Positions 1 to 39,478 of a stretch of 44,752 nt of DNA are shown piece after piece. Positions within the stretch are counted from its first letter, which is position 1. Every line of letters begins with the position of its first letter. Both the position numbers and the translations under genes were made by a program. The notes below the pieces were generated by a model. That model was given only the letters and a program-made list of their open reading frames with translations, did no database searches and was not told the DNA's origin. The stretch lies in the IMG/VR virus record IMGVR_UViG_3300034407_000682, positions 1 through 44,752 of that record; one strand, given 5' to 3'. The DNA comes from a virus.

Positions 1-2907
1 GATGAGTCAGCTGACAAACTATTAACAGCAGGTTCTACAACTATAGACATTGTTAAAGATAAACTATTAATAGGTAGTACAGCAGTTACAACTACAGCAG
101 CTGAGTTAAATATTCTAGATGGTGTTACAAGTACAACAGCAGAGCTAAACATACTTGATGGTGTTACTAGTACTGCTTCTGAACTTAATATTTTAGATGG
201 CGTAACAAGTACCGCATCAGAGTTAAACATACTTGATGGTGTAACAAGTACTACCGCAGAACTTAACATATTAGACGGTGTTACAAGTACAACAGCTGAA
301 CTTAACATACTTGATGGAGTTACAGCAACTGCGTCAGAAATAAATTTAATAGATGGCAATACTAGCCGTGGCACAACTGCTGTAGCTTCTGGTGATGGTA
401 TACTTATAAATGATGCTGGCACAATGAGAATGACTAATGTAGACACTGTATCTACTTATTTTTCTAGTCATAACGTAGGTGGTGGTAACATTGTAACTAC
501 TGGAGCATTGAACTCTGGAAGCATTACATCAGGTTTTGGAGCTATAGATAATGGCTCATCTAATATTAGCACAACAGGTACAGTTACTTTTGGTAGTTTA
601 TCAGATGGTACAATAACAGCTACAGCTTTTGTAGACGAGGATGATATGTCCTCTGACTCTGCAACTCTCATACCTACACAGCAATCAGTTAAAGCGTATG
701 TAGATGGTCAAGACTTTGCAGCTACTAGTTTTGTTATGGAAGATGGAGACGGTACAGAAGTTACTATTACTAAAAACAAAGAAATGAAATTTGTTGAAGG
801 TGGTGGTATAGACATTAACTGGACTGACACTGACAATGGTACAGATGGAGATCCTTACGATTTAACTTTTACAATAAATGCAGCTCAAACAGATATTACA
901 TCTATATATGCTACTGATTTAATTATAGGTGAAGATGCTCAAACGGCAATAGACTTTGGCACAGCAAATGAAATTGATTTTAAAGTAGATAATGCTGCAA
1001 GACTTACATTAACGTCAGGAGCTTTATATCCTGTAACAGACAATCAAATAGATTTAGGAACAAGTTCTTTAGAGTTTAAAGATGCTTACTTTGATGGTAC
1101 AGTAACAGCTGATGCGTTTGCTGGCCCACTTACAGGTAATGTTACAGGTAATGTTTCTGGTACTGCTGCTACTGTAACAGGTGCTGCTCAATCAAACATT
1201 ACGTCATTAGGTACATTAACTGCGTTAACTGTTGATAATGTTGTTATTAATGGTGCAACAATAGGACATGGTGATGATACTGATTTAATGACAGTAGCCA
1301 ATGGTGTTTTAACTGTAGCTGGTGAAGTCTCAATGACTACGTTAGATATTGGCGGTACTAATGTTACCAGTACCGCAGCAGAACTTAATATTCTTGATGG
1401 TGTTACCAGTACTGCAGCCGAATTAAACATTTTAGATGGTGTGACAACTACTGCCGCTGAAATAAACCTAATAGATGGTGGAACAGCTAGAGGAACTACC
1501 GCAGTAGCTAGTGGCGACGGAATACTAATTAACGACGCTGGCACAATGCGTATGACAAATGTTGATACGGTGTCTACATACTTTGCTTCTCATTCAGTAG
1601 GTGGAGGTAATATTGTTACGACAGGTGCATTAAACTCTGGAAGCATTACTAGTGGCTTTGGGGCAATAGATAACGGTTCTTCAGCTATCACAACCACTGG
1701 AGTTATTACAGGCGGTACAGTAGAAGCTACAACTGATACAGCGGCAGGTGATAATGCGGCAATAGGGTATACATCTGCGGAAGGGTTGATACTTACTGGG
1801 CAAGGTTCAACATCAGATGTAACTATAAAAAACGATGCCGATGCTACGGTTATAAGTATACCGACAGGCACAAGCAATGTTTCTATTGGAGAAACTGCCA
1901 CCACAGCTAGATTTAATGCTCATAAATCAAGTGTTGTATATGCAGAACTAGGGACTGCAACTAACGGACATTTCTTTAGCGCTCAAAGTGATGACAACAC
2001 CGATGCGTTTGAAATTTATCAACAACATGGCTCAAATACTACTAGAAATACTTTTGTTATAACTGATAATCATACTGGTTCAAAAGGAGAAACATTTTTA
2101 GTTAGAGGTGATGGCAGAGTAGGTATAGGTACAACTGCCCCAGACAGTCTTGTAGAAATTGCTAGTGGTGGAGCGACTACTGCTAAAGTCTCAACTAGCG
2201 CAACAAACAGTTACGCCGAAATGATTTTTGAAGATGGTAATGCTGGCTATGGCTTTCAGGTAAGGTCAGATGGAGCGCAGTCAATAGCAACAGGCTCTAT
2301 GGTAATTAATGATAGAGATACTGGAAGTTTTCCTGTTGTTATAAATGAAGGCAACGCTTCAAATACATTATTTATAGGTGGAAGCAATGTTTTAATTCAA
2401 TCAGCAACAAATTATTCCGACGGTTCTATCGGCAATGGGTGTTTTCAACTTGATGGTCTCAATGGCTCAAGAATAGGAATGACATGCCGAGCTAAAAATA
2501 GTGATGGTAGTGCGTTTGTCACATCAGCCACGGGTTTAATAGGGTTTGTTAATGGTAATGGAGCAGTTGGTAATATTTCTACAGATGGCTCGGCAACCGT
2601 TTATAACACAAGCTCTGACTACAGATTAAAAGAAAATGTTAGTTATACTTTTGATGCAACTACAAGACTAAAACAACTTAAACCAGCAAGATTTAATTTT
2701 AAAGCAGATGCAGACAAAACAGTAGATGGGTTTTTAGCTCATGAGGTGTCTAGCATTGTTCCAGAAGCTATCACAGGCACGAAAGATGCAGTAGCCGACA
2801 ATGGCGACCCAATCTATCAATGTATAGACCAAAGTAAGTTAGTGCCATTACTGGTTAAAACAATACAAGAACTCGAAGCTAGAATAACCGCATTGGAGGC
2901 AGGATAA
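1..2907 (+). CDS. Tail fibre with C-terminal self-cleaving chaperone domain (5' partial)
   Basis: The frame is open from base 1, so the N-terminus lies outside the window. The visible protein is a Thr/Ser/Gly-rich beta-repeat fibre. It begins with tandem 13-residue repeats around ELNILDG, and a second cluster lies at about 1366-1480. The C-terminus (about 2617-2890) matches the Peptidase_S74 / endosialidase intramolecular chaperone: SDYRLKENV, then LKPARFNFK, GFLAHEV and a final coiled coil. In this family the chaperone trimerises the fibre and cuts itself off at the Ser of the S-D-x-R-L-K motif. The likely role is host receptor binding at the virion tail. The next gene starts one base inside the stop (TAATG). 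Receptor and host are unknown. Confidence 0.88.
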   Translation, partial: DESADKLLTAGSTTIDIVKDKLLIGSTAVTTTAAELNILDGVTSTTAELNILDGVTSTASELNILDGVTSTASELNILDGVTSTTAELNILDGVTSTTAELNILDGVTATASEINLIDGNTSRGTTAVASGDGILINDAGTMRMTNVDTVSTYFSSHNVGGGNIVTTGALNSGSITSGFGAIDNGSSNISTTGTVTFGSLSDGTITATAFVDEDDMSSDSATLIPTQQSVKAYVDGQDFAATSFVMEDGDGTEVTITKNKEMKFVEGGGIDINWTDTDNGTDGDPYDLTFTINAAQTDITSIYATDLIIGEDAQTAIDFGTANEIDFKVDNAARLTLTSGALYPVTDNQIDLGTSSLEFKDAYFDGTVTADAFAGPLTGNVTGNVSGTAATVTGAAQSNITSLGTLTALTVDNVVINGATIGHGDDTDLMTVANGVLTVAGEVSMTTLDIGGTNVTSTAAELNILDGVTSTAAELNILDGVTTTAAEINLIDGGTARGTTAVASGDGILINDAGTMRMTNVDTVSTYFASHSVGGGNIVTTGALNSGSITSGFGAIDNGSSAITTTGVITGGTVEATTDTAAGDNAAIGYTSAEGLILTGQGSTSDVTIKNDADATVISIPTGTSNVSIGETATTARFNAHKSSVVYAELGTATNGHFFSAQSDDNTDAFEIYQQHGSNTTRNTFVITDNHTGSKGETFLVRGDGRVGIGTTAPDSLVEIASGGATTAKVSTSATNSYAEMIFEDGNAGYGFQVRSDGAQSIATGSMVINDRDTGSFPVVINEGNASNTLFIGGSNVLIQSATNYSDGSIGNGCFQLDGLNGSRIGMTCRAKNSDGSAFVTSATGLIGFVNGNGAVGNISTDGSATVYNTSSDYRLKENVSYTFDATTRLKQLKPARFNFKADADKTVDGFLAHEVSSIVPEAITGTKDAVADNGDPIYQCIDQSKLVPLLVKTIQELEARITALEAG
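85..357 (+). repeat. Tandem 39-bp (13-codon) fibre repeats
   Basis: Seven in-frame copies of a unit reading roughly VTSTTAELNILDG follow each other. The last is a variant ending in EINLIDG. The peptide is nearly constant, but the codons differ from copy to copy: Leu as cta, tta or ctt; Ile as att or ata; Gly as ggt, ggc or gga. The DNA copies are therefore clearly divergent. Confidence 0.9.
1366..1480 (+). repeat. Second cluster of the 13-codon fibre repeats
   Basis: Two more AELNILDG units and one AEINLIDG unit are followed by a block of roughly 70 residues that almost repeats the one after the first cluster (RGTTAVASGDGILINDAG, MRMTNVDTVSTYF, GGGNIVTTGALNSGSI and SGFGAIDNGSS). The fibre thus contains a long internal duplication. 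Confidence 0.85.
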
Positions 2908-3242
2908 TGGCTAACACATACACATGGAGTTTTAAGCAACTAGACACAGTAAAAACTGAGGGATCGTTAAGTGACGTAGTTAAATCTATTCACTGGCGGC
3001 TTACGGGCACGAGCGATGCAAAAACTCCAAATAACACAGCAGACGTTTATAGACAAACATATCTAGGTGCTGCAGATGCAGATAACTTTACAGCTTTTAA
3101 TAGTTTGACTAAGGATTGGTGTAAAGCACAGGTGCTGGCAAACATAGAAAAAACTGAAGCAGAGCTAAAAGCTGATATAGATGCACAACTTACAAAACTA
3201 GACACACCCACATCTGAAGGAAAACTACCATCATCTTGGTAA
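2907..3242 (+). CDS. Small fibre-linked protein, unknown function
   Basis: The 111-residue product starts one base inside the fibre stop codon, so it is translationally coupled to the fibre. It has a predicted beta-rich N-terminal half (YTWSFKQLDTVKTEGSLSDVV and HWRLTGTSD) and a helical C-terminal half ending in PSSW. The layout resembles the small DUF7936-type proteins encoded beside marine phage tail genes, but I offer that family only tentatively. A tail or fibre accessory role is inferred from position. Confidence 0.75.
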   Translation: MANTYTWSFKQLDTVKTEGSLSDVVKSIHWRLTGTSDAKTPNNTADVYRQTYLGAADADNFTAFNSLTKDWCKAQVLANIEKTEAELKADIDAQLTKLDTPTSEGKLPSSW

Positions 3243-3258
3243 AACAAAGGAGATAATA

Positions 3259-3504
3259 ATGCCAAACATGAAACAAAGTGGCGTACAGCCAACACCACAA
3301 GACTACTTAAACCCTTCACCAAAAATTTCTGGAGGAGCTAATAACATTTACAATCCTCCTGTATCTAAGGTAGCTAGTACTTCTATCTATCTAACTGACT
3401 CACAACCTGTTGGTGGTGGAGCAAATAGTATACAGCATCCAGAAGCTCCTAGAGTAGCTGGTGGAGCTAATGACATTTATTTGAGAGACAATGAGACAGT
3501 CTGA
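3259..3504 (+). CDS. Small Gly/Asn/Pro-rich repeat protein
   Basis: The 81-residue protein is preceded by a strong ribosome binding site (AAAGGAG, 7-8 nt before ATG). It contains three related short units (GGANNIYNPP, GGANSIQHP, GGANDIYLRD), so it is a low-complexity repeat protein without cysteine. It lies between fibre-linked genes, and its stop overlaps the next start (TGATG). Family unknown; probably a minor structural or fibre-associated protein. Confidence 0.7.
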   Translation: MPNMKQSGVQPTPQDYLNPSPKISGGANNIYNPPVSKVASTSIYLTDSQPVGGGANSIQHPEAPRVAGGANDIYLRDNETV

Positions 3505-8049: not shown

Positions 8050-10229
8050 TGGCTACGCAACTTGGAGCTGATTTTGTTCAGGCACATAAAGATGCTGAAA
8101 AAGATGATTCAGCGTTTAAAGATTTTATAAGATACATGACTTATTCTGTAGCTACTCAGTTAGGAAAAGGTGCTACAGATGCAGTACTAACTAAATTTAA
8201 TGAAAGCGCAGTAAACAATAAAAAAGCTTTGTGGGATACATCTAAAGGTCAGGATTATGATGGAAAGTATGACACTCTTAGTAGAACAACTCAAACAGTA
8301 AAAGATAGATTAAAAAAAGCAGATGCTGCTGGAGATGCTTTAGCTTACTATAGAGACTTAGGTTACAATCAAGCAATTCCAAGATTTAGAGTAAATAATA
8401 AAACAGGTGTTACATATTCAGATGAATCTTTAAAATTGTTACTTCAAGAAGAAGTTGATAAAATAGCTAAAGCTAATTTAAAAAAAGACAGAGATTTACT
8501 TGCTTTTGCTGATAAAAAATTATTAACTCCAGATCAATTTGCTCAGCATAAAACAAATATAAATTTTAGATCTGGAAATGTTATTGGTAGACAATTTAAC
8601 AAAATAAGAAATATGTTTAGCGATAAAGACTTAGAAACACAAAGATGGACTAAAATATACGAAGGTGATACCTATAAAAATATGGATTTATTACAAGAAA
8701 AAATAAAGGAAATGGCTCAAAAAGGTGTAGACCCTTCTAGTTTTGCTGAAATTTTAGATAAAATAAAAGAAGAAGAAAATACCCTTGGCTACAATCGTTA
8801 TGATCCAAGAATTATAGCAGGTATGAAAATAGTACCTGAATATTCTGAAAAAGAAGTGCCAAACAACGATGGCAGTATAGATGATGTTACAATAGAAAGA
8901 AAATTTAATCCAGAAAATAACAGAATAGAAGTAAGAGAAGTAAACCGAAGAACTGCAAAAATAGATGATAGTTATTTACTTGGTAAATCAGAAACTATAG
9001 CAGATTACATAAAAGGTAGACAATTTTTACCAGCTGTTGCTCGACAAATTGAATCTGATTTAGCTTCTAATTTTGATGTAAGTGGCGCAGATTTAAATAG
9101 TAATATTAGTTTTAAAAAATTTGGAGAATACCAACAAGTTATAGATTTTATAGCTAAAAAATATAATTCTAATATGGCTAACTATAAAGAGACAGCAGTA
9201 GGTAAACTTGCACAACTAGATTTAATAGATAAAGGTGTACAAGCTATACCTGAACTTTATGAAGCAGTTATGTCAGGAGCAAAACTCGATAATATTGCTT
9301 TAATACAACTTAAACGAATTAAAAATGCAGCGGTGGCTAGAAGCGCGGTTAAAAATAATTGGGGTCAGATGGATGAAGGGTATAATTTACTTCCTTTAGG
9401 TCATATATCTGGAGGAGTAAATCCTGATACTGGAGAAGTATTAGCTATACCAGACCCTAACTTAGAGTTAAGGCCAGAACAAATAAATGAATATAATATA
9501 AGATTTCAAAGAGGCATGAATGGGTATCCATTTTCTACAGGGCAATCAATACAAACAGAACAAGCAGATGTTTCTGGTGAATTTGTTGCTCCTGAAGATG
9601 ATATTTCTCAAAAAGAACTAGAAATAAGAAAAGCTTCATTATTAGAGCCAGTAATTGGAAAATCTGAAACTCCTACTGATGCTCGTAGATTTTTAAAAAC
9701 TGGAGAAACCTTATCTAAAGTAGATGTTCCTAAACTGCCTAGAATGTTAAAACCTAATATAATGATGAATGAAAATACTTTAAAAGATTTTCCTGAGTTA
9801 AAAGGAACTAAATTTGAAAAAGCAGGATTACTTGGAGGAGTAAGTCAAGATACTGTAAACGCTGCTAAAGCTATTCAATATATAAGAGCATTAGAAAATA
9901 AAGGAGTAGTTGTCGATAAAGAAGATAATTCTTTTGTATTTGATAACTTAAATTTTATTGGAGTCGTAATAGATCAATTACAAGAAGTAGATGCAAAAGA
10001 AGGGTTAACTGCAGGAAGTGCATTGCTAAGTTTACAAGAAGCTCAAAAAGAAGGTCAAAAAGAAGCAGACAAAGTAAAAGTAACTGGTAATCGAAATGAA
10101 AGAGCTAGAAAGTTAAGAGCAAAACAAGGATTTTTAAAACCTGATGTAATATTATCTAATCTTTTTGAAAAACGTTTAAGGGGATCAGTACTTAGCGCAC
10201 TTCCTTTTCCTTTAACAAATATTGATTAA
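8049..10229 (+). CDS. Large predicted internal virion protein
   Basis: This 726-residue, Lys/Asp/Glu-rich, mostly helical protein has no signal peptide, membrane span or recognisable catalytic motif. Its DNA is strongly A/T-rich. It is coupled to the preceding gene (TAATG) and followed 15 bases later by the 1761-residue virion protein. The order of several large adjacent proteins, the last with a murein hydrolase domain, parallels the internal core proteins of podoviruses such as T7 gp14-16. That comparison rests on position, not sequence. Confidence 0.75.
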   Translation: MATQLGADFVQAHKDAEKDDSAFKDFIRYMTYSVATQLGKGATDAVLTKFNESAVNNKKALWDTSKGQDYDGKYDTLSRTTQTVKDRLKKADAAGDALAYYRDLGYNQAIPRFRVNNKTGVTYSDESLKLLLQEEVDKIAKANLKKDRDLLAFADKKLLTPDQFAQHKTNINFRSGNVIGRQFNKIRNMFSDKDLETQRWTKIYEGDTYKNMDLLQEKIKEMAQKGVDPSSFAEILDKIKEEENTLGYNRYDPRIIAGMKIVPEYSEKEVPNNDGSIDDVTIERKFNPENNRIEVREVNRRTAKIDDSYLLGKSETIADYIKGRQFLPAVARQIESDLASNFDVSGADLNSNISFKKFGEYQQVIDFIAKKYNSNMANYKETAVGKLAQLDLIDKGVQAIPELYEAVMSGAKLDNIALIQLKRIKNAAVARSAVKNNWGQMDEGYNLLPLGHISGGVNPDTGEVLAIPDPNLELRPEQINEYNIRFQRGMNGYPFSTGQSIQTEQADVSGEFVAPEDDISQKELEIRKASLLEPVIGKSETPTDARRFLKTGETLSKVDVPKLPRMLKPNIMMNENTLKDFPELKGTKFEKAGLLGGVSQDTVNAAKAIQYIRALENKGVVVDKEDNSFVFDNLNFIGVVIDQLQEVDAKEGLTAGSALLSLQEAQKEGQKEADKVKVTGNRNERARKLRAKQGFLKPDVILSNLFEKRLRGSVLSALPFPLTNID

Positions 10230-17509: not shown

Positions 17510-17933
17510 TGTTGTATGTAGTTTATTTTTAAATACCATTTCTGCTGATGAGATGTTATTTAAATTTAAAAGTCCTAGTTTTTCTGGTAACGGTACGTCA
17601 GCACACTACCTTACTATAGAAAATCAAGAACACAGTCGTGAAAAAAAAATTAAAGAAGAAATCCAAGCGTATAAAGAAGAACTAGTACGTGACCAAAATA
17701 ACACAACGCTTGCTAGGTTTATTCGTAACTTAGAAAGTCGGATATATGCAGAGCTATCTAGGCAGCTAGTAGACAATATGTTTGGAGAAACTAAATCAGA
17801 AAGCGGAAGCTTTACATTAGAAGGTAATAAGGTGGATTATAGTACAGATGGAAGTTTTGTTTCACTTAAAATTACAGACACGGAAGGTGGTGAAACTACT
17901 ATTACTGTTCCTATTGGCAGCTTTACTTTCTAG
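17493..17933 (+). CDS. csgF: CsgF-like curli assembly protein
   Basis: The 146-residue secreted protein has a signal peptide (MKLLLSVVCSLFLNTISA) followed by mature DEMLFKFKSPSFSGNG. In E. coli CsgF the mature N-terminus, which plugs into the CsgG pore, has the same F-x-F-x-N/S-P-x-F-x-GN pattern. The C-terminal part (SRIYAEL, then FTLEGNKVDYSTDGS and LKITDTEGGETTITVP) follows the family order. In the curli system CsgF couples CsgG to fibre nucleation at the outer surface. I prefer ATG at 17493 to the upstream GTG at 17469, because it begins directly with the signal peptide. It overlaps the preceding gene and csgG. Confidence 0.85.
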   Translation: MKLLLSVVCSLFLNTISADEMLFKFKSPSFSGNGTSAHYLTIENQEHSREKKIKEEIQAYKEELVRDQNNTTLARFIRNLESRIYAELSRQLVDNMFGETKSESGSFTLEGNKVDYSTDGSFVSLKITDTEGGETTITVPIGSFTF

Positions 17934-18690
17934 TTGTGCAAATACAGGAGGAATGAGAGGACATATATCTCCCAAAATAGAACAACCAGTTATACGAAAG
18001 CTTCTTATAAAAGAACTTGCAATAGTAAATGCACCGATTAAAAAACCCGTAGTTGCGGTGTATGCAGGAGCTTTCTTAGATGACACAGGGCAGAGAAGAA
18101 GCAACGGGGAGTATGCAAGCTTCAGTACTGCCGTAACTCAAAAGCCTGTAGCGTATCTTATACGAGCGTTACACCACGCAGGTTCTGAGAAGCGTGGGTT
18201 CTTCGATGTAGTCGATAGAGTAGGGCTAGAGCATCTTGCAAAGGAAAGGCAGCTTATCAGGTCAGCTAGAGCAGACTTTGATGAGAAGCAAAAGTTAAAG
18301 CCTTTACTTTTTGCAGGGTTGCTTATGGAGGGAAGTGTCGTAGGTTACGAAAGTAATGTGCTTTCTGGAGGTTCTGGAGCAAGGTACTTAGGTATCGGAG
18401 CTTCCAGAAAATACAGACAAGATATTATTACTGTATCATTAAGAACAGTTTCTGTACTTACTGGTAGGGTACTAATAGAAACTTTAGTAACTAAGAGTGT
18501 CCTAAGTGTAGGATACAACCAAGATGTTTTTAAATTTGTAGCTCAAGGAACTGAACTAATAGAAATTGAAAATGGTTCGGTGCAGAATGAATCGATAAAC
18601 ATTGCCCTTCAAGCAGCAATAGAGACAGCAGTACTACAAACTATTAACGAAGGGATAAGCAAAAAATACTGGGAGATAAAAAATGATTAA
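17848..18690 (+). CDS. csgG: CsgG-like outer-membrane curli secretion lipoprotein
   Basis: The 280-residue protein has a lipoprotein signal ending in LLSSC (lipid-anchored Cys about residue 30). It has clear CsgG signatures: ASFSTAVTQKP (about 90), LAKERQLIRSA (130-140), LLMEGSVVGYESNVLSGG then GARYLGIGA (158-185), and AAIETAVLQTINEGI near the end. CsgG forms a nonameric outer-membrane pore. The constriction Phe56 of E. coli aligns with Phe92 here, but Asn55 aligns with Ser. ATG 17848 gives a long leader; GTG 17887 or 17890 would give a compact one. Either way the signal peptide is encoded inside the csgF 3' end. Confidence 0.9.
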   Translation: MEVLFHLKLQTRKVVKLLLLFLLAALLSSCANTGGMRGHISPKIEQPVIRKLLIKELAIVNAPIKKPVVAVYAGAFLDDTGQRRSNGEYASFSTAVTQKPVAYLIRALHHAGSEKRGFFDVVDRVGLEHLAKERQLIRSARADFDEKQKLKPLLFAGLLMEGSVVGYESNVLSGGSGARYLGIGASRKYRQDIITVSLRTVSVLTGRVLIETLVTKSVLSVGYNQDVFKFVAQGTELIEIENGSVQNESINIALQAAIETAVLQTINEGISKKYWEIKND

Positions 18691-19396
18691 AGCGTTTATA
18701 TTATTTTTTTCTGTTATGCATTTTGTTTTAGCTGATAACGAGATATATATGGATCAATCAGGAGCGACTGCAAATATTGACCTAGAACAACAGGGCGGTT
18801 CTAACCTGATAGGTGGTGTTGGTTCTGTAGCAGGTACGCTTACAGATTTTGACTTCATAGGTACAACAAATACTCTAGATATAAATCAAATAGGTTCAAG
18901 CAACCTTTGGAAAGGGGATATAACAGCAGACTCGTACACTGGATTTTTCCAGTTTACTGGTGATTCAAATGATATGACAGTTTCAACTGATACAAACAAT
19001 ACGTATGGAGCAGACAGTTCTAATGTAAATGTCAACGTAACAGGAAGCAGTAATACAATGACTCTTAATCAAGCGACAACTGCAGCAGCAGGTACTCTTG
19101 ATTTAGATTGGATAATACAGGGAAGTAACAACACAATTACATCTAGCATAAACATTGACCAAGCTACAAACTATATGGATATAGATGGTAGCGACAATAC
19201 AATAACCTATGCAGGTACAGGAGTTAACGCTAGTGCAGGAGGTTACTTTTGGTTAGATCATACAGGAGGTTCAAGGACATTCAGTGTTTCACAAACAAGT
19301 ACACAAAACAATGATTGGCTCAAGATTACTTCTAACGGTTCTAATGGTTCTGTTTGTGTCGAGCAAGATGATCAAGGAACCGCTGTGGGCTGCTGA
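18683..19396 (+). CDS. Curlin-like secreted fibre subunit
   Basis: The 237-residue protein has a signal peptide (residues 1-17, ending in VLA) and then curlin-type strand repeats: IYMDQSGATANIDLEQQGGS, LDINQIGSSNLWKG, VNVTGSSNTMTLNQ, WIIQGSNNTITS and IDGSDNTITY. CsgA/CsgB repeats have the same I-x-Q-x-G-x-x-N rhythm and stack into an amyloid beta-solenoid. The repeats are less regular than in E. coli CsgA, and two Cys (225 and the last residue, 237) could form a disulfide. Coupled to csgG by an 8-base overlap, it is the likely exported substrate. A phage adhesin is the main alternative. Confidence 0.78.
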   Translation: MIKAFILFFSVMHFVLADNEIYMDQSGATANIDLEQQGGSNLIGGVGSVAGTLTDFDFIGTTNTLDINQIGSSNLWKGDITADSYTGFFQFTGDSNDMTVSTDTNNTYGADSSNVNVNVTGSSNTMTLNQATTAAAGTLDLDWIIQGSNNTITSSINIDQATNYMDIDGSDNTITYAGTGVNASAGGYFWLDHTGGSRTFSVSQTSTQNNDWLKITSNGSNGSVCVEQDDQGTAVGC

Positions 19397-20426
19397 CATA
19401 GGAGCTATATCAGAGCTTAACGGTCGTGGTAGGGTACTCAGAGATAAAGAGTTAGGGGCAGAGCTTAACTTAGGCATTCAATCGCTAGACAATGTAGAAA
19501 CTTCTAGAGGTAGAATGGCTATAACTTTTGAAGATGACAGTAAAGTAAAACTTACTGAGCATAGTAAGTTACTAATCAATGAGTACATCTACGACCCAAA
19601 CCCTAGCAAGTCTAAAATGACTCTGAAATTTGCTAGAGGTACGGCTAGGTTTCTTACAGGCAAGCTGGGTAAGATAGATAAAAAGAATATTAACCTATCT
19701 ACACCTACAGCAAACATTGCAATACTCGGTACAGACTTTACATGCACAGTAGATGAGCTTGGTAAAAGTTTAATTATCTTACTGCCTGATGCTAACGGTT
19801 TGTCCTCTGGAGAGATTGTAGTTTCGACAGCAGCGGGTAGCGTGACTTTAAACAAACCTTATCAAGCTACTACAGCTTCACTGTTTGTAAATGCACCGAC
19901 TAAACCTGCTATATTAAATTTAACATTAGATTTAATTGATAACATGTTGATTGTAACTCCTCCTAAAAGAGTCGAACGTGTCGAGGAGGTGGAAACTGTA
20001 GCAGAAAAGAACCCGTACTTAGATTTTTCAGGGTTAGATGTGGACTTTTTAGCAGATGATTTTCTTGACGAGTCCTCAGAGTTTGAATTTACTGAATTAG
20101 ATATTAATTATCTTGACGTTAACTTCTTGGAAGATCTGCTAAATGTACTAGATGCTCTTGCAGTTGCCGAAGAAGAAGATAAATTAAAACAATCTAGTAC
20201 GATGCAGATTACAGGTACAACGCTAGGTCAAGATAAAGATACACAGATTACTACGCTAGTAAATGGGCAGATAGTTACGCTGCAAAGATTTGTAGGACAC
20301 AAAGTTAGGTTAGACGTAGATGGAAGTAATGCGTATACCGTAGTCCTTATGCAAGAAGGTGTCGAAAAGATTGTCAAGATTAATGGTGGTTCAGATTCAA
20401 CAATAAGAATATTACAAGGATCTTAA
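19311..20426 (+). CDS. Secreted FecR-domain protein
   Basis: From ATG 19311 the product has 371 residues with a signal peptide (GSRLLLTVLMVLF through LWA). A FecR domain follows (about residues 30-185: GRGRVLRDKELGAELN, FEDDSKVKLTEHSKL, LKFARGTARFLTGK and STPTANIAILGTDFTC). FecR domains normally sense or relay periplasmic signals. An acidic linker (about 220-300) separates it from a beta C-terminus. The frame opens at 19284, but 19311 gives the better signal peptide. It overlaps the curlin 3' end by 86 bases and is coupled to the cyclase (TAATG). No FecI sigma factor is nearby. Confidence 0.8.
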   Translation: MIGSRLLLTVLMVLFVSSKMIKEPLWAADIGAISELNGRGRVLRDKELGAELNLGIQSLDNVETSRGRMAITFEDDSKVKLTEHSKLLINEYIYDPNPSKSKMTLKFARGTARFLTGKLGKIDKKNINLSTPTANIAILGTDFTCTVDELGKSLIILLPDANGLSSGEIVVSTAAGSVTLNKPYQATTASLFVNAPTKPAILNLTLDLIDNMLIVTPPKRVERVEEVETVAEKNPYLDFSGLDVDFLADDFLDESSEFEFTELDINYLDVNFLEDLLNVLDALAVAEEEDKLKQSSTMQITGTTLGQDKDTQITTLVNGQIVTLQRFVGHKVRLDVDGSNAYTVVLMQEGVEKIVKINGGSDSTIRILQGS

Positions 20427-22222
20427 TGAAAAATTTATACGGCTTTATTTTAATAAGTTTACTTATACTTCCACTACTGCTACAGCCTACAGCTTATCAA
20501 GTTCTAAAGATGAGAACATTTGATAGGCTTGTAGAGACACCAGAGGAGTCTGGTTACTTTGCAATACTAAACATTACAGCAGAAGATATAAACAGAGAAG
20601 GTGGGTATCCACTACCTCGCGCTAGACTAGCAGAAATAAACAATAGCTTACTGCGTAGAGGTGCTACAGGAGTAGGATGGGTTATGTCCTTTCCGCATCC
20701 AGACAGGCTCGGAGGAGATGAAGCCTTTGCTAAGTCTTTGAGCCACACATCTACAGTGTTAGCCTTGTTTGGTAACAACAGTGGAGAGTACCCCGAAACC
20801 GTAGGAACTGTTATACGTGGTGAGGGAGAAGGCGGTTATTTATCAAACGGTGTAGCTCAAAACATAGATATACTGAAGGACTCGGATTGGACTGAGCAGG
20901 GTATAGCAACAGCTCCTGTAGAGGTAGATAACTTAGTACGCAGAGTACCGCTACTATACAAGACTCCTGACGGTTGGCTGGCTTCTTTTGGTACACAGGT
21001 ACTAAAGGTACTGGCAGATGCACAGACATATATAATAACAACTGGTGAGAATGGATTAGAAGAAGTGACAGTGCAGGGTATACCGCCTGTTAAAGTAGAC
21101 TCGTTAGGTAGGAAGTGGGTATCTTGGGTAAAGACTTACGAGGTTTCTTTGTTAGATGAGATGTATGATTCTTACGACATAGAAGGTAGGTTTGTTTTTG
21201 TAGGTGTTACAGCCGATGGAGTGATGCCACAGGTAGCAACGCCTATAGGACTTCTAGAACCTCAATACATTCAAGCAGCCCTAGCAGAGTCCATGTTGAT
21301 AGAGAACAGCCCACATGTACCCAACTATGCATTGTTGCTAGAACTCCTCATATACATCACTACAGTGACTCTGGTGTGGATGTTAGTTAGTGGCTTAGGT
21401 GTGGTCGGAGGAGTGCTTTCTTTACTGGTAATCTTTGGTGGTACAGCAGCTACAGAAATACTATTTGTTAAGAATGGGCTGCTAATCGACACAACTTGGG
21501 CATTAATCACTCAGATTTTGGCCTCTACGGTGGCCTACTTTTTAAATTACCGTACCCAACATAGGCTTAGGCAACAAATAAAGAAACAATTTGAGCATTA
21601 TCTAGACCCTAGACAGGTTAAACAGCTACAGAAAGACCCTAGCTTGCTCAGACTAGGTGGAGAAAAGAGGTACGCTACCTTTTTATTTACAGATGTTAGA
21701 GGGTTTACGAGTATGTCCGAGACTTTACCGCCTGAAAAAGTCACTTATATAATGAATAAAGCTTTGACAGCACAGCAAACTGCGGTGCAGAAGTATGGTG
21801 GGATGGTGGATAAGTATATTGGTGACGCTATGATGGCTATCTTTAATGCTCCGCTTGACCAAGATGACCACGAATACAGAGCTATTAACTGTGCTAATCA
21901 AATACTAATTAATATGGACTTGTTGAATGACAAGCTTGTAAAAGAAGGGCTGCCAAAGATTGCTATAGGCATAGGCATAAACTCAGGAGAAGCTGTAATA
22001 GGTAACATGGGTAGTGATTCAAGGTTCGACTACACGGCTATAGGTGACGCTGTAAATACAGCAGCTCGATTAGAGTCGGCTACTAAAGAACAGCAGGTAG
22101 ATATATTAATAGGTGAATCTACAGCAAGTAAAAGTAAATACAATTTAACAAGGATGAATGAGATTACAGTTAAGGGTAAGGAGCAACCACTTCAAGTTTT
22201 TACAACTGACTTAGGGGCGTAA
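20426..22222 (+). CDS. CHASE2-domain membrane adenylate cyclase (class IIIb)
   Basis: The 598-residue protein has an N-terminal span (about 5-22), a periplasmic CHASE2 sensor (about 30-295, with YPLPRARLAEI and FVFVGVTADG), three more spans (about 302-373) and a C-terminal cyclase domain (about 415-595). All key catalytic residues are visible: metal Asp423 (FTDVRGFTSMSE) and Asp467 (KYIGDAMMAIFN), adenine-selecting Lys463 and Thr537, and transition-state Asn544 and Arg548 (GDAVNTAARLE). The Lys/Thr pair is typical of class IIIb cyclases, some of which respond to bicarbonate. It should make cAMP at the inner membrane. CHASE2 cyclases are often found with FecR proteins in bacteria. The sensed signal is unknown. 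Confidence 0.92.
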   Translation: MKNLYGFILISLLILPLLLQPTAYQVLKMRTFDRLVETPEESGYFAILNITAEDINREGGYPLPRARLAEINNSLLRRGATGVGWVMSFPHPDRLGGDEAFAKSLSHTSTVLALFGNNSGEYPETVGTVIRGEGEGGYLSNGVAQNIDILKDSDWTEQGIATAPVEVDNLVRRVPLLYKTPDGWLASFGTQVLKVLADAQTYIITTGENGLEEVTVQGIPPVKVDSLGRKWVSWVKTYEVSLLDEMYDSYDIEGRFVFVGVTADGVMPQVATPIGLLEPQYIQAALAESMLIENSPHVPNYALLLELLIYITTVTLVWMLVSGLGVVGGVLSLLVIFGGTAATEILFVKNGLLIDTTWALITQILASTVAYFLNYRTQHRLRQQIKKQFEHYLDPRQVKQLQKDPSLLRLGGEKRYATFLFTDVRGFTSMSETLPPEKVTYIMNKALTAQQTAVQKYGGMVDKYIGDAMMAIFNAPLDQDDHEYRAINCANQILINMDLLNDKLVKEGLPKIAIGIGINSGEAVIGNMGSDSRFDYTAIGDAVNTAARLESATKEQQVDILIGESTASKSKYNLTRMNEITVKGKEQPLQVFTTDLGA

Positions 22223-22487: not shown

Positions 22488-22562
22488 ATGATATGGGAAA
22501 AACCAACATACATAGATATGAGATATGGCTTTGAAGTTACGATGTACATAAACATGCGTTAA
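22488..22562 (+). CDS. pqqA: PqqA-like PQQ precursor peptide (24 aa)
   Basis: The ATG is preceded by a strong AAAAGGAG site at 9-base spacing. The peptide core KPTYIDMRYGFEVTMY and the final Arg follow the PqqA consensus (M-W-x-K-P-x-x-x-D-x-R-x-G-x-E-V-T-x-Y-x-x-x-R), with one extra residue near the start. Glu16 and Tyr20 occupy the positions of the Glu and Tyr that PqqE cross-links to begin PQQ synthesis. Length matches the 23-24-residue family. No pqqB, C, D or E is in the window, so host enzymes would be needed. The stop overlaps the stop of the opposing gene at a GTTAAC palindrome. Confidence 0.88.
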   Translation: MIWEKPTYIDMRYGFEVTMYINMR

Positions 22563-28120: not shown

Positions 28121-29872
28121 TTAGTGTGTGTCACTCCAGTTATCTCCTATTTTATATTCAGCATCCATCGGACACTTTAGTTTATAATATACACCAGCTT
28201 CCACGATGGAGTCAACCGCCATAGAACCTAGTCTATCTACATCATTCTCCCAAGTTTCTATCTGCCACTCGTCATGCACATTTGCTACAACGTGAGCATC
28301 TATGTCGCTCGAAAGTAATTTATTATTAAGTATAACCAAAGCTCGCTTCATAACGATAGCTCCAGCACTTTGCAGTAAAGAATTTAATGCAGCATGTGAG
28401 CTACGTATAAATACTTTACGTCCATCTAAAGCTTTGATGTAACCTCTTTGATCTGCTTCTCTCTTAACTCTATTTCTAAAAGACTTAAGTGATGGGAAAT
28501 TATTGAGAAAAGATTGCTTAACTCGTTTACCTTGAGCTTTGTTTCCTCCAACCACTTGTCCAATCTTTGCATCTCCTGCTCCGTACAAGAATGCATAGAT
28601 GAAAGTTTTAGCCTGAGATCTTGATTGCAATCCCGCCCTTGCTTGATTAGCTGTGTGTATGTCTCCGTTGAGTATGTCATTTATAAACTCCTTATCGTTG
28701 AGATAGTGTGCAAGCATCCGTAGCTCAAGACCACTAGCATCCACACCTACTAACTTATACCCTCTAGGAACTGTCCAGCAAGCTCTACACTCCTTACCGT
28801 AGGGAGATGATAGGCTAGGTATCTGAGCCATGTTAGGGTCACGGTGCGACATTCTACCAGTAATAGTACCATTAGATATAACTGAGCCATGCACTCTGTC
28901 ACCATCTAAAAAAGATAACCACGACTGTACTTGCGCTATCCGTTTCTGTAACATTAAATAGTTAGCTATCATTGCTGCTTCGGGTATGTCCGTAACAGTA
29001 GCTAGTATCTTCTCGTCAACCTTCGGCTGCCCTGTAGGTGTAAATACTTTAGGCTTCCAGCCAAACTCCTGTAAGTATGTACCTATCTGCTGTCGAGAAC
29101 TTAAATTAAATTCTTCCTTTGCAGTTCGTACAATCTCTGAAGCAGTACAATCTTTAAATATATTATACTCCTCATCAGACAGTCTAGCTTGCTTACCATT
29201 TTTATCTATACCTAACTTACGTAACACTCCATCATGTGTGTGCTGTGGGTAGATTACCCTTTCATTTATCTTAGGAGTAAATGTTTTATGCACAACCTCT
29301 TGAGTGTTGTTAAGCTCGCTGGTCAGTTCCTCCAACAACTTATTAGCTTTATCTTTATCTAACATAAAGCCATAGTCTCTTTGGGCTGTAGTAATTTTAT
29401 AAGTATCCATTTCAACATTAACACTTTCGCTAGTAAAGCCCTTGCTCTCACGTTTAAGTTCTTCATAAACTTTATAGTTTAAAAACACATCCTGAGCGCA
29501 GTACTTCATCATCTCGTCTGAGTATCTAGTGTAGTCATCGAACTCTATCTTAGGAAACTGTAACTTGTATCCCCAAGCCTGTAAGCTATGCGATGCTCGT
29601 ACTGGATTAAACAATCTAGAAAGTACTAGTGTATCAACTAACTTCTTGTCTGATAAATCAGTGTTTAATAATCTTTTAACCACTGGTATATCAAAGCCAA
29701 TAATATTATGCCCAATTAATTTATCTGCTTGTTGTAATAACTTAACTCCTTCACTTAGTTTCTTTGGATTAAAATTAAATTGCTCTTGAGTTTCAACATC
29801 GAGGACAGACATACAGTAAACTTTTGTAGGCTGTAACCCGTCAGTTTCAATATCGAATACTAAAGATTTCAT
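28121..29872 (-). CDS. Family A DNA polymerase with 3'-5' exonuclease (T7-like)
   Basis: The 583-residue replicative polymerase has proofreading motifs Exo I DIETD (7-11), Exo II HNIIGFDIP (55-63) and Exo III YCAQD (124-128). Polymerase motif A is VGVDASGLELR (Asp378), motif B SQAKTFIYAFLYGAG (Lys422, Tyr426, Tyr430) and motif C VHDEW (His533-Asp534-Glu535). Tyr426 occupies the position of E. coli Pol I Phe762, as in T7. In virome studies Tyr there is associated with virulent phages. The length is below T7 gp5 (704). It is coupled to primase-helicase by ATGA. No dedicated thioredoxin-binding insert was identified. Confidence 0.95.
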   Translation of the reverse strand: MKSLVFDIETDGLQPTKVYCMSVLDVETQEQFNFNPKKLSEGVKLLQQADKLIGHNIIGFDIPVVKRLLNTDLSDKKLVDTLVLSRLFNPVRASHSLQAWGYKLQFPKIEFDDYTRYSDEMMKYCAQDVFLNYKVYEELKRESKGFTSESVNVEMDTYKITTAQRDYGFMLDKDKANKLLEELTSELNNTQEVVHKTFTPKINERVIYPQHTHDGVLRKLGIDKNGKQARLSDEEYNIFKDCTASEIVRTAKEEFNLSSRQQIGTYLQEFGWKPKVFTPTGQPKVDEKILATVTDIPEAAMIANYLMLQKRIAQVQSWLSFLDGDRVHGSVISNGTITGRMSHRDPNMAQIPSLSSPYGKECRACWTVPRGYKLVGVDASGLELRMLAHYLNDKEFINDILNGDIHTANQARAGLQSRSQAKTFIYAFLYGAGDAKIGQVVGGNKAQGKRVKQSFLNNFPSLKSFRNRVKREADQRGYIKALDGRKVFIRSSHAALNSLLQSAGAIVMKRALVILNNKLLSSDIDAHVVANVHDEWQIETWENDVDRLGSMAVDSIVEAGVYYKLKCPMDAEYKIGDNWSDTH

Positions 29873-31521
29873 AACTCGTCTACCTCGTTGTCAGCATCAA
29901 TGAATGTTTCCCGAAGTCTACCAGTTTCTCTGTCATAAAGCAAATGAGTACCCATACCTACATCACCAGTGTACCTAGATTTAAGTACCCTCATGTGCGT
30001 GGTGTTAGCTTCTTCGGGGTCATCAGATTGTTGGTCACGCTCTAAAGCTATAACGCAATCAGATAACTGAGCAATACTTTGCGAACCACGTAGATGTGAT
30101 AGGCTTACCGAGATACCATTCTCATGTCCTCGATTACCATCTACTCTACGTAAGTGACTAACAAGTACTAACCCCACACCTGTCTCCTCAACAATACTTC
30201 TGAGCCTAGTCATAATATTATCTATAGCCCTGCGCTCATCGCCTTCCGACATAGAGCTAACAAGCATGTGTAGGTGGTCTACAAATACCCACTTACAACC
30301 ACAACCAACAATTAAAAATCTTAACTTACTAAAGATTTCATCAATGTTAGTAATACCAAAGTGACTGTGTATCCACACCCTATCTTTATTTTCACCGCCA
30401 TAAATATTATCGAAGTATTTATTAAGGTCATCTTCTGAGAACTGCTCACGCTCTTGGTCAATGTAAAGCCTAGCGTTAGCCTCGATTGAAAGTATACCGT
30501 CAACAGTACGTCTCCAATCTTCTTCTAATGCTATGATACCTACGTTGTCCTTGGTGTGAGTGATTAGCCAGTGCTCTAACTCACGGGTAATACTAGACTT
30601 ACCAAGCCCTGTACCACCTGTCAGTGTCACAAGCTCACCTCTCCTCATGCCGTATAGTTTTTTATTAAGACCAGCCCAAGGGTATGGTATGCTCTCACGC
30701 TGCTCACGATTATTAAAGTCTAACTTCTGTTCAGATATATTAAGAACTCCTGATGGTGTATATAACTTCGCACCCCACCAAGCATCTATATAGGCTTGCG
30801 CCCGTTTAGCTCTGAGCATTTCGTTAGCATCTTTAAAGTCATCTGGCATTGTAAGTATCTTAGCCTTGCTAGGTGTTAGTAATCTAGCTACAGCCTTAGC
30901 ACCCTCACGCCCTGCTTTATCATTGTCAAAGTTAATTACTACACAGTCAAACTTTTCTAGGAACTCCAGTGAATTTTTAACATCCCTAGCTGCTCCTGCT
31001 GCTCCTGACTTAACGCTAACTACAGGCCACTTAGAACCTAGTAATTCATACGCTGCCATCGCATCACATTCGCCCTCGACTAATGTAATAAACTTACCGC
31101 TATCTTTGAAAGCGGATTCACCAAACAGACCAGTGCCTTGAGAGCTACCGCGCCATGTAAAGTGTTTACCTTCACTCCGAACCTTATAGCTTGTAACTTC
31201 TGAAGCTATGCAGTATGGGTAGAAGTGTTGGACTACATCACCGTTTTGGTTTGTAGTTGATTTAACATTATATTTCTTAGCAGTTGCTAGAGAAATACCT
31301 CTATCATTAAGAGCTAAGAACTCTCCTTCAATTTCATTTACTGAGTTTGTTCTATGCACTTTTATTTCCTGTACAATATTTTTATCTGCTCCTTCTTTTA
31401 CTTCGTAGTTTGGTATTCGTTTATCGCAACTAAAACAATATGCACTACCATCATCGTTGACAGATACTGCATCGCTGGAGTCACATAAATAACATGGTTG
31501 ATGGTACTTAACAAAAGCCAT
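29869..31521 (-). CDS. Bifunctional primase-helicase (T7 gp4-like)
   Basis: The 550-residue protein carries a zinc finger (Cys10, Cys13, Cys29, Cys32), a TOPRIM primase domain (LVEGECD at 147-153 and DNDKAG at 199-204) and a DnaB-type helicase domain. The helicase has Walker A GGTGLGKS (302-309), Walker B WVFVDHLHM (411-419) and a C-terminal HLRGSQSIAQLSDCVIALERD-type segment. It unwinds the fork and makes primers for the polymerase encoded next. A short stem-loop lies just before its ribosome binding site (AGGAGA). Confidence 0.94.
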   Translation of the reverse strand: MAFVKYHQPCYLCDSSDAVSVNDDGSAYCFSCDKRIPNYEVKEGADKNIVQEIKVHRTNSVNEIEGEFLALNDRGISLATAKKYNVKSTTNQNGDVVQHFYPYCIASEVTSYKVRSEGKHFTWRGSSQGTGLFGESAFKDSGKFITLVEGECDAMAAYELLGSKWPVVSVKSGAAGAARDVKNSLEFLEKFDCVVINFDNDKAGREGAKAVARLLTPSKAKILTMPDDFKDANEMLRAKRAQAYIDAWWGAKLYTPSGVLNISEQKLDFNNREQRESIPYPWAGLNKKLYGMRRGELVTLTGGTGLGKSSITRELEHWLITHTKDNVGIIALEEDWRRTVDGILSIEANARLYIDQEREQFSEDDLNKYFDNIYGGENKDRVWIHSHFGITNIDEIFSKLRFLIVGCGCKWVFVDHLHMLVSSMSEGDERRAIDNIMTRLRSIVEETGVGLVLVSHLRRVDGNRGHENGISVSLSHLRGSQSIAQLSDCVIALERDQQSDDPEEANTTHMRVLKSRYTGDVGMGTHLLYDRETGRLRETFIDADNEVDEL

Positions 31522-31575: not shown

Positions 31576-31815
31576 TTAAGATGCTACTTGTTCTGCATCC
31601 TCTACAGTAGTCCTCATGTCCTCCGTTAGTTGGTCTTTTATTTTTACGTTTAATGTTATAGCAGCAGCTTGTAATATCTCTATCTTTCTATTAAGATTTT
31701 GTATATCTTTCTGCACTTCAACAAGTCTAGCAAACACTATCTTACCTTCATCAGTAAACTTACTAACTTCGTAAGATACATCATCAAGTACATAGGCTAC
31801 GTTACCTTCACTCAT
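31576..31815 (-). CDS. Small coiled-coil protein
   Basis: The 79-residue protein has a beta-like start (NVAYVLDDVSYEVSKFTDEG) and a heptad-rich helix (KDIQNLNRKIEILQAAAITL). The plan resembles small DUF6447-type phage proteins, a tentative comparison. It is coupled to the SSB gene by a 4-base ATGA overlap. Confidence 0.7.
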   Translation of the reverse strand: MSEGNVAYVLDDVSYEVSKFTDEGKIVFARLVEVQKDIQNLNRKIEILQAAAITLNVKIKDQLTEDMRTTVEDAEQVAS

Positions 31816-32246
31816 AATTCATCCACCTCAGTTTCTAAGTCTGTAATAGCGTCAAACTCATCGCCATCTCCTGAGCTGTACTGTACTAAGTCTATTACCT
31901 GTACTGCCTGTAGCTCAAGACCTTTGAACGCTTGACCATTACGGTTTATTTCCCACGGCTTGCACTGAACCTTAACCTTAGAACCATTACCAACAAGGCA
32001 ATCAAGTTCGTTCTTGTTTTTGTCCAGTAACTTAGGAGCTTTACGCACCATACCATTAGGGCCATTTACATTACGCTTTATACTTATAGTCGGGCCTTCT
32101 TCTTTATCGAACTTAACACTGAAGCCTTTCTCTTTTAAGTCTTGAGCAGTATCTTTATCAACAACTAAATCGACAGAATACTTTGGCTCAAACCTAGTGT
32201 TAGGTGTAGTAATAGATGCCCAATAAGCAATGCCTTCATAAACCAT
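31812..32246 (-). CDS. Single-stranded DNA-binding protein (phage type)
   Basis: The 144-residue protein has an OB-like beta core (YWASITTPNTRFEPKYSVDL, VGNGSKVKVQCKPWEIN, FKGLELQAVQVIDLV) and an acidic tail (GDGDEFDAITDLETEVDEL). Acidic tails in T7 gp2.5 and other SSBs dock polymerase and helicase. The first gene after a leftward promoter in the replication operon, it fits an abundant SSB. Assignment is by architecture and context rather than a specific motif. Confidence 0.75.
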   Translation of the reverse strand: MVYEGIAYWASITTPNTRFEPKYSVDLVVDKDTAQDLKEKGFSVKFDKEEGPTISIKRNVNGPNGMVRKAPKLLDKNKNELDCLVGNGSKVKVQCKPWEINRNGQAFKGLELQAVQVIDLVQYSSGDGDEFDAITDLETEVDEL

Positions 32247-37196: not shown

Positions 37197-37257
37197 TTGA
37201 GTTCTCCTTTATTATTTAATTTAAGTTTAAAAACAATTCCAAAATCATCATCATTCC

Positions 37258-37286
37258 AAGCTACCACGACCTCAATCGCTTGTCAA
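37258..37286 (-). promoter_or_regulatory. Leftward early promoter
   Basis: Leftward TTGACA (37286-37281), 17-base spacer ending TGG, and TAGCTT (37263-37258). It directs transcription into the 37196 gene, about 60 bases on. Same architecture as the 34525 and 32286 promoters. Confidence 0.65.
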
Positions 37287-37388
37287 ATCGCCATTGTTAC
37301 TCTATTAATTTAGCCACCGCTACTCCATTAAACAAGCGCGAGGGTAAATTTTAAAAAACGTGTAAGTTATAAGCTTACAGTTTGCAAG

Positions 37389-37452
37389 TTATCCACAGCT
37401 TATCAACATCTTATTAACATAATTATATATAATAAGTATATATTAACAAAAA
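37389..37452. other. Candidate replication origin: DnaA boxes plus A/T tract
   Basis: TTATCCACA (37389-37397) is a perfect DnaA box. TTATCAACA (37400-37408) differs by one base and TTATTAACA (37411-37419) by two. All three are on the same strand and exactly 11 bp apart, one helical turn. Almost pure A/T sequence follows to about 37452, as in a DNA unwinding element. Function is inferred from pattern only. Confidence 0.55.
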
Positions 37453-37686
37453 CGATTCTAAGCTGTTCTACGCCATTTTAGTCGGCAAGCTTGGCAATGG
37501 TTCGAATCATGGCATACGAAGCGATACAAGTCAAACCAGAGCCATATAACGCTAGTTATGGTAGCTATACATAGCTCTAAAACTGATTGTAAGGCTCGTG
37601 ACTCAACGCTAGCAGTTAAACCTAGGTGATACTATGGGTTGAAGTACTAGAGAAGCTTAGAGAAGCTTAGAGAAAATATCGAAGGC

Positions 37687-37714
37687 AAAAAAAAGGCTCG
37701 AATTAACGAGCCTT
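37687..37714 (-). terminator. Strong intrinsic terminator, leftward
   Basis: On the leftward strand the 8-bp stem AAGGCTCG/CGAGCCTT with a 6-base loop is followed by eight T. It begins about 25 bases after the stop of the 256-residue gene, isolating that gene from the origin-like region. Confidence 0.85.
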
Positions 37715-37739
37715 GAAAACTTAGAAGTTTTTTAGAGTT

Positions 37740-38510
37740 TTAAGAAGTTTCACCTAATAGCTTTTTAAGCCAGTAATTGACTAGAGCTGGTTTCTTTTCA
37801 CTGGTAGCAATACCATGCTTTAACTCAAAAGCCCTTTTCAAATCGGCAAGTTTACACGCGGCCAATTCCTTAGCGGTAGTAACTTCTATACCGTTAATAT
37901 CTAGCGTAATAACTGGCGAATTAGGCGTTTTATCTTTAATTGAAACAGTCGGTGTCTTGGATGAAGTATCACTAGGAATTGGTTTTCCTAATTCCTCAAA
38001 GTATTTAGCCGCATAATCGCGAGTTATATGAGATTCTTCCCCATAATAAGTATTATTATCAAAGTCACCACGATAGTTTTTATCGTTAGCGAATTTATAA
38101 TTATCAAAATCTACACCGTAACGATACCAGTTAAGCAGTTCGAAACAATACGTGACGGCATTTTGAACATAGCCATTGCTGTCCAAAAATTCTTCGGCGT
38201 TAAGGTAATACCATTCGCTATTTTTAAGCACTAATTTTTCGGTATGCTTAGCGGTACATTCTCTACTAGACGTATCATAAATATCTGATATATCACCGCT
38301 AGTAACTGGCGTGTTCCATATCGTACCTTTAAAGCTAGGCGTTAAAGTATTCTCGCCAGCGTCCTCCAAAAAAGCTCGTAAGATTTTGGTGACAATACCT
38401 TTCTCACTTGGCAAGTAAAGTCCTAATACTAAACCTTGGTTAAACAGCGTATTAGCCGCGCTGTATTTTTGTCGGTTAGTGGCTAGTGCTTGTCTGTCAA
38501 AATTTCTCAT
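37740..38510 (-). CDS. Stand-alone protein with SAP-like C-terminus, unknown
   Basis: The 256-residue protein is the only gene between two control regions, with its own upstream promoters and a strong terminator. The N-terminal two thirds (LVLGLYLPSEKGIVTKILRA, VTYCFELLNWYRYGVDFDNY) is unrecognised. The C-terminal 45 residues (AACKLADLKRAFELKHGIAT, then SEKKPALVNYWLKKL) have the L-x-x-L-K...GI-x-x-S-x-KK-x-x-L pattern of SAP/HeH DNA- or RNA-binding motifs. A regulatory or DNA-binding role is plausible. AGGAGG lies upstream of the ATG. Confidence 0.7.
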   Translation of the reverse strand: MRNFDRQALATNRQKYSAANTLFNQGLVLGLYLPSEKGIVTKILRAFLEDAGENTLTPSFKGTIWNTPVTSGDISDIYDTSSRECTAKHTEKLVLKNSEWYYLNAEEFLDSNGYVQNAVTYCFELLNWYRYGVDFDNYKFANDKNYRGDFDNNTYYGEESHITRDYAAKYFEELGKPIPSDTSSKTPTVSIKDKTPNSPVITLDINGIEVTTAKELAACKLADLKRAFELKHGIATSEKKPALVNYWLKKLLGETS

Positions 38511-39040: not shown

Positions 39041-39060
39041 GTCTTTTATGCACAAACTAC

Positions 39061-39089
39061 TTGACAAAACCTCATATCAACCCTATAAT
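39061..39089 (+). promoter_or_regulatory. Consensus sigma-70 promoter for terminase operon
   Basis: TTGACA (39061-39066), 17 bases, TATAAT (39084-39089): perfect consensus. The terS ATG begins only 8 bases after the -10, so the mRNA should be leaderless or nearly so. Confidence 0.75.
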
Positions 39090-39097
39090 GGTACACT

Positions 39098-39478
39098 ATG
39101 AAGAATAATAACAAACAATTAACCACCAAACAAGAGAATTTCCTTGAACATTTACTTGTAACAGGAGGTGATCCTAAAAAAGCAGCAGAGCTTGCTGGCT
39201 ATACAACGCACTGGCATGTAGTAAAAGCCCTCAAAAATGAAATTATAGAAATGGCTTCGACCATCCTTGCTCAGTCAGCCCCTCAAGCTGCACAGAAACT
39301 GGTACAAGTAATGGAATCAAATGAACCTATACCTCAAGCAAGTATGAGAGTACAGGCTGCACAGACTATATTAGACCGTGTGGGGTTAGGTAAACGTGAA
39401 ACGATGGATGTTAAACACGAAGTAAGTGGTGGTGTGTTTATCTTACCAGCAAAAGAGGAAGTTATAATTGAGGCTTAA
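39098..39478 (+). CDS. Terminase small subunit
   Basis: The 126-residue protein begins with the family pattern LTTKQENFLEHLL then GDPKKAAELAGY (helix-turn-helix DNA binding). A helical oligomerisation region follows (LAQSAPQAAQKLVQVMESNE, MRVQAAQTILDRVGLGKRE). It should recognise the packaging site and recruit the large subunit encoded 200 bases downstream. There is no Shine-Dalgarno before its ATG, consistent with leaderless initiation. Confidence 0.85.
   Translation: MKNNNKQLTTKQENFLEHLLVTGGDPKKAAELAGYTTHWHVVKALKNEIIEMASTILAQSAPQAAQKLVQVMESNEPIPQASMRVQAAQTILDRVGLGKRETMDVKHEVSGGVFILPAKEEVIIEA

Follow-up and report, generated by a model that had tools for sequence, protein, structure and literature searches.

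Does a phage that carries T7-like replication genes start the copying of its DNA with the DnaA protein of its host? The question is raised by a short array of DnaA-box-like 9-mers in the contig of a marine phage, the whole 44,752-nucleotide stretch of which we call the window. The initial annotation had described three such 9-mers at 11-bp intervals on one strand before an A/T segment, in a gene-free region near the start of the early operon, and had read them as a host DnaA-dependent origin or a DnaA-titrating site.

The box array and the adjoining A/T tract

The 9-mers lie exactly where they had been placed, and their surroundings are as described: no open reading frame of 50 or more residues is found between 37196 and 37740, and the first leftward early gene begins directly beyond.

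37389–37397, + strand: DnaA box 1, TTATCCACA, perfect consensus
37400–37408, + strand: DnaA box 2, TTATCAACA, one mismatch to TTATCCACA, 2-bp gap to box 1
37411–37419, + strand: DnaA box 3, TTATTAACA, two mismatches to TTATCCACA, 2-bp gap to box 2
37411–37445, no strand: A/T tract 3' of the boxes, proposed DNA unwinding element, weakest 35-bp duplex of the contig
37440–37448, + strand: putative degenerate extra box ATATTAACA, out of phase, picked out by eye
37197–37739, no strand: gene-free region holding the array, no ORF of ≥50 aa
37011–37196, − strand: opening gene of the early operon, which runs leftward; 61 aa

The box starts (37389, 37400 and 37411) follow a period of 11 bp, all on the + strand. 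The site thus presents a phased cluster of three consensus-matching boxes (0, 1 and 2 mismatches), and its two-base gaps fall within the 2–3 bp that allow cooperative filling of same-strand boxes. Single boxes are not enriched in the contig as a whole, with 5 matches to TTWTNCACA against 6.6 expected; the phased triple, allowing up to 3 mismatches in 27 positions, occurs once in the contig and in none of 400 windows simulated with an order-2 Markov model. The tract consists of A or T at 33 of 35 positions, the joint A+T maximum of the 44.7-kb contig, and ranks 0 of 44,717 for weakness by 35-bp nearest-neighbour energy, with an identical result at 50 bp. The boxes point toward this low-stability element with the polarity of oriC; applied to E. 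coli oriC as a control, the same energy calculation locates the unwinding element, and the polarity of box R1 matches that seen here. Origins of the oriC type are expected to have DnaA-trio repeats between boxes and unwinding element. By eye, none is clear in the window, and a short CTACTA follows one box in three close relatives (L003–L005).

Conservation, replacement and recurrence

The initial annotation had held that its reading would fall if boxes or spacing were not conserved in close relatives. All five relatives from a first search that reach the homologous gap (L002, L003, L004, L005 and L006) keep an array there. Four perfect copies of TTATCCACA stand at offsets 0, 11, 30 and 56 in L003–L005, and L002 carries TTATCCACA, TTTTCCACA, two degenerate copies and TTATGCACA at 0, 11, 22, 33 and 45. 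Between L006 and the window, boxes and tract match and the DNA farther out differs; an array persists in these close relatives while the surrounding sequence diverges. The weakest duplex again lies beside the array, at rank 0 in L003, L004 and L006 and within the top 0.2% in L002. A sixth close relative, L278, whose TerL is 99% identical, has lost the DnaA boxes. In their place it has a different A/T tract, which ranks 0 for duplex weakness in that locus, beside a 19-bp tandem repeat. Such in-place replacement is what an exchangeable origin module would predict. The array is therefore kept in five of six close relatives, and the claim survives on this point. The replaced region of L278, with tract and repeat (TGGTYAAAATTTAAYCAG), is at 2839–3376 of that contig. 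Separately, L003 (about 1070–1110) and L004 (about 3250–3275) have a second DnaA-box cluster some 300 bp 5' of terS.

In vivo, E. coli DnaA binds mainly pairs of boxes 2 or 3 bp apart, the "double DnaA box", and mutating either box or inserting one base disrupts or sharply reduces binding (PMC11317965). Exact consensus, the 2-bp spacing preferred in vivo and upkeep in five of six close relatives despite sequence turnover together support DnaA binding well. Judged from these sequence features, host DnaA very probably binds the array.

Two further observations concern the DNA in and next to the gap. A leftward gene of 256 aa at 37740–38510 has other sequence in its place in close relatives, and neither a family match nor a relative in viral contigs was found for it. 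At 37570–37583, on the − strand, the window contains GTTTTAGAGCTATG, which is absent from L006 and is identical to the first letters of the S. pyogenes Cas9 repeat; Rfam reported no CRISPR RNA, and the likeness is probably due to chance.

The portal protein is 61% identical to that of Pelagibacter phage HTVC115P, which places the window's phage among the HMO-2011-type podophages. Arrays also occur in this wider group, in portal relatives at 60–78% identity (L185, L186, L193, L223 and L245), located between genes at 0.3 to 2.1 kb 5' of terS. They are patchily distributed: of 19 portal relatives whose sequence extends 2.2 kb or more 5' of terS, 4 have one, and L223 has one besides. Among 38 TerL relatives the canonical array appears only in members already known to have it, none of the further ones with enough upstream sequence adding a new case; the IMG/VR relatives are mostly fragments. 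At least six gains or losses of the trait are needed on the TerL tree. The array was not found in HTVC115P, HTVC103P, HMO-2011 and HTVC033P, the first two of which were read only in part. As it is missing from most members, we rejected the idea that it characterizes the HMO-2011 group as a whole.

In 39 loci without canonical boxes, the DNA next to the weakest duplex shows an excess of repeats at a lag of 10–12 bp: 13 of the 39 reach p ≤ 0.05 compared with 4 to 8 at other lags, by shuffle p-values that ignore relatedness. This excess is no more than suggestive, and phased A-tracts may contribute to it. The clearest case is L234 (about 1040–1190), where TTATGTACC is repeated with an 11-bp period next to the least stable duplex of that locus; these repeats are possibly boxes of a different DnaA or of another initiator.

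Beyond this group, perfect box pairs at 11 bp occur in at least 120 viral contigs (L008–L127), many with further boxes in phase, and the same pair at 16 bp in 27 stretches. Across 117 distinct phage array contexts, further boxes on the same strand peak at +22 and +23. The order strong–strong–WTATTAACA, as in the window, was found in 21 viral contigs and in 7 cases in a much larger bacterial collection, where a bacterial oriC with this triple had been considered as a possible donor. Contamination by host oriC was rejected as the source of the viral arrays, since dnaA scored above cut-off in 0 of 100 records. DnaA-box arrays are common in phage contigs, and the present one adds to a known class. 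Their recurrence suggests that phages often address host DnaA, with replication start, the timing of gene expression and the stopping of the host as possible uses. A general A/T asymmetry beside such arrays was sought and is nearly absent: in the 117 contexts the 3' flank is hardly richer in A/T than the 5' flank. An array alone therefore does not generally mean an origin, and phage arrays may have more than one use.

A candidate origin and its alternatives

What, then, could DnaA do at this site? Genes for the T7-like replication named in the initial annotation are present in the leftward early block.

29869–31521, − strand: T7 gp4-like primase-helicase (PHROG 239), which would load at the opened site
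28121–29872, − strand: family-A DNA polymerase, from the PHROGs scan
31812–32246, − strand: gp2.5-like single-strand DNA-binding protein, from the PHROGs scan

The block, from 37.2 to 22.8 kb, also encodes endonuclease I, a Cas4-type exonuclease and ribonucleotide reductase. TerS, TerL and portal are encoded rightward, and the array sits where the two operons diverge. The late operon includes unusual phage cargo at 17848–22222, namely CsgG-like, FecR-domain and CHASE2 plus adenylate/guanylate cyclase proteins. A search for T7-type RNA polymerase (PF00940), which detected phage CHOED at 2.9e-37 as a control, had no match in the contig, possibly incomplete, or in nine relatives. A T7-type origin relies on the phage's own single-subunit RNA polymerase to make the transcript that primes replication, and this hallmark was not found in a contig that may lack part of the genome. 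No DnaA homologue was detected in this possibly incomplete record, and no initiator gene appeared among 20 proteins scanned with PHROGs, a set that covers the small ORFs only in part. Origins that combine Rep with DnaA, as in phage P1 and iteron plasmids, have their own Rep gene and iterons beside the DnaA boxes. Searches for tRNAs and Rfam RNAs, and for DNA-level matches in annotated phages, gave none. Nor did the open-licence papers searched yield a description of how HMO-2011-type marine phages start replication.

An origin is supported by the adjoining weakest duplex, the oriC-like polarity, the position at the operon divergence and the failure to detect an RNA polymerase or DnaA of the phage. 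From sequence, array and tract are most likely a candidate origin of small oriC-like type, where host DnaA would melt the DNA for a T7-like replisome, an assignment whose chances we put at about even. We infer DnaA occupancy, melting, helicase entry and initiation at the site in the following order. Host ATP-DnaA would bind the strong box at 37389 and spread over the weaker boxes in phase with it (37400 and 37411), forming a filament aimed at the A/T tract; the filament would melt 37411–37445; the gp4-like primase-helicase would enter the bubble; and the family-A polymerase with the gp2.5-like protein would copy outward, along the direction of transcription of both operons. A T7-type helicase should load without a host loader.

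Several observations count against an origin. The boxes number only three, two of them degenerate; most of the wider group lacks the array; and a promoter-like match lies within the tract in the window and in L006. Cumulative GC skew has a local minimum at 39,335 and a maximum at 22,544, and we rejected it as proof of an origin because both extremes coincide with operon boundaries, which confounds skew with gene orientation. The reading of the initial annotation is partly supported: local structure and gene content favour its DnaA-dependent origin, the array is patchy in the wider lineage, and the skew is confounded.

A broader proposal is possible, if rather doubtful: that an exchangeable cassette is where replication starts in this podophage lineage, which has a T7-type replisome but lacks an RNA polymerase of T7 type. 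Such a cassette might consist of an A/T melting tract and an 11-bp phased initiator array; some members might recruit host DnaA with it, close relatives having perhaps swapped the array for other repeats. Swapping among close relatives would imply that initiator specificity evolves apart from the replisome. If this were true, the phased DnaA arrays of many other phages would be further cases.

The main rival to an origin takes DnaA as a transcription factor, a known role (PMC8203912), and involves the following features.

37422–37449, − strand: sigma-70-like promoter match, TTGTTA-16-TATAAT, 10 of 12 positions, inside the A/T tract and directed leftward across the boxes
37693–37714, − strand: leftward intrinsic terminator between the upstream unit and the array, conserved in L002, L004 and L006
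39012–39040, − strand: perfect sigma-70 promoter, leftward, from the promoter scan
39046–39054, + strand: lone DnaA box TTATGCACA, between the −35 boxes of two divergent perfect promoters
39061–39089, + strand: perfect sigma-70 promoter, rightward, before terS, from the promoter scan

The array would then act as the operator of an early promoter that lies in the tract and reads leftward, and the second box, between the divergent promoters at 39.0 kb, would couple phage expression to host DnaA-ATP. The terminator leaves the early operon in need of a promoter downstream of it, which the match over the boxes could supply, and the lone box keeps its place in relatives on either strand (the same place in L002 and L006, the opposite strand in L003 and L004). 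However, the promoter match recurs at the array of L006 and is missing at those of L002 and L004; shuffled sequence gives nearly as many matches of equal quality (8.1 expected, against 9 in the contig); and an operator leaves unexplained why the boxes adjoin the weakest duplex of the contig. We consider this explanation unlikely in place of an origin, and the two roles may coexist.

Titration, the second function proposed in the initial annotation, would have multiplying phage copies absorb host DnaA and so halt initiation on the host chromosome. A high-copy molecule bearing double boxes of high affinity would be a competitor for DnaA, phages with at least five boxes exist, and titration is reported in E. 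coli (PMC12371093). Yet the window has only three boxes, two of them weak, and titration requires neither a fixed place nor an adjoining melting tract, which makes it improbable here. A T5-like injection-stop or DNA-handling signal, in which repeats and DnaA boxes mark a pause point of DNA entry, is distinctly improbable: the annotated T5 signal (iss, 9140–10149) does contain, among others, a double box at 12 bp, TTATCCACA-gac-TTATCAACA, and DnaA boxes are named among its features (PMC13250531), but T5 has a long terminal repeat and a two-step transfer, and nothing comparable is known for the window's phage. Such a signal would be expected close to the edge of a terminal repeat that enters in the first step. 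Very improbable, too, is a phage-encoded protein as the ligand of the repeats, their likeness to DnaA boxes then being convergent. Relatives without DnaA boxes do carry other phased repeats there (TTATGTACC at 11 bp in L234, the 19-bp repeats of L278); against this, the exact consensus at 11-bp spacing recurs in the 120 or more viral contigs, none of the 100 records searched has dnaA above cut-off, and some close relatives have perfect boxes only. Chance in an A/T-rich gap, to which two degenerate boxes might point, is hardly credible given the 400 simulations without a comparable triple and the maintenance of the array despite flank turnover.

Comparison with known systems

The candidate origin shares features with several described systems. 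HMO-2011-type podophages (HTVC115P, HTVC103P, HMO-2011 and the CRP phages) have portal proteins about 48–61% identical and the same early/late layout; unlike the window, those checked showed no canonical DnaA array, and HMO-2011 has primase and helicase as separate genes. The predicted origin of Pseudomonas phage PseuGes_254 likewise joins an A/T-rich region to DnaA boxes, by an Ori-Finder call; it is a prediction only, for which no phasing or conservation analysis was found (PMC11512268). The T5 injection stop signal also places double DnaA boxes in non-coding DNA at a boundary of gene classes, whereas its spacing is 12 bp, it lies within a terminal repeat and its proposed role is in two-step DNA entry. 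Closer in spacing are the double boxes found by ChIP-seq in E. coli at purH, polA and DARS2, pairs 2–3 bp apart with one near-perfect box (PMC11317965); these are chromosomal, tied to transcription or to control of DnaA, and pairs rather than the triple of the window.

Compared with bacterial oriC, the array is much smaller, belongs to a phage with a T7-like replisome, and has neither a neighbouring dnaA nor an evident DnaA-trio, its origin role being predicted. It nevertheless resembles the R1–unwinding element unit of E. coli in that intergenic boxes, closely spaced on one strand with a strong anchor and weaker partners, are aimed at the least stable DNA. If it is an origin, a T7-type replisome would here be coupled directly to an initiator of the host, and replication start could be tested with a 100-bp fragment and E. 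coli DnaA.
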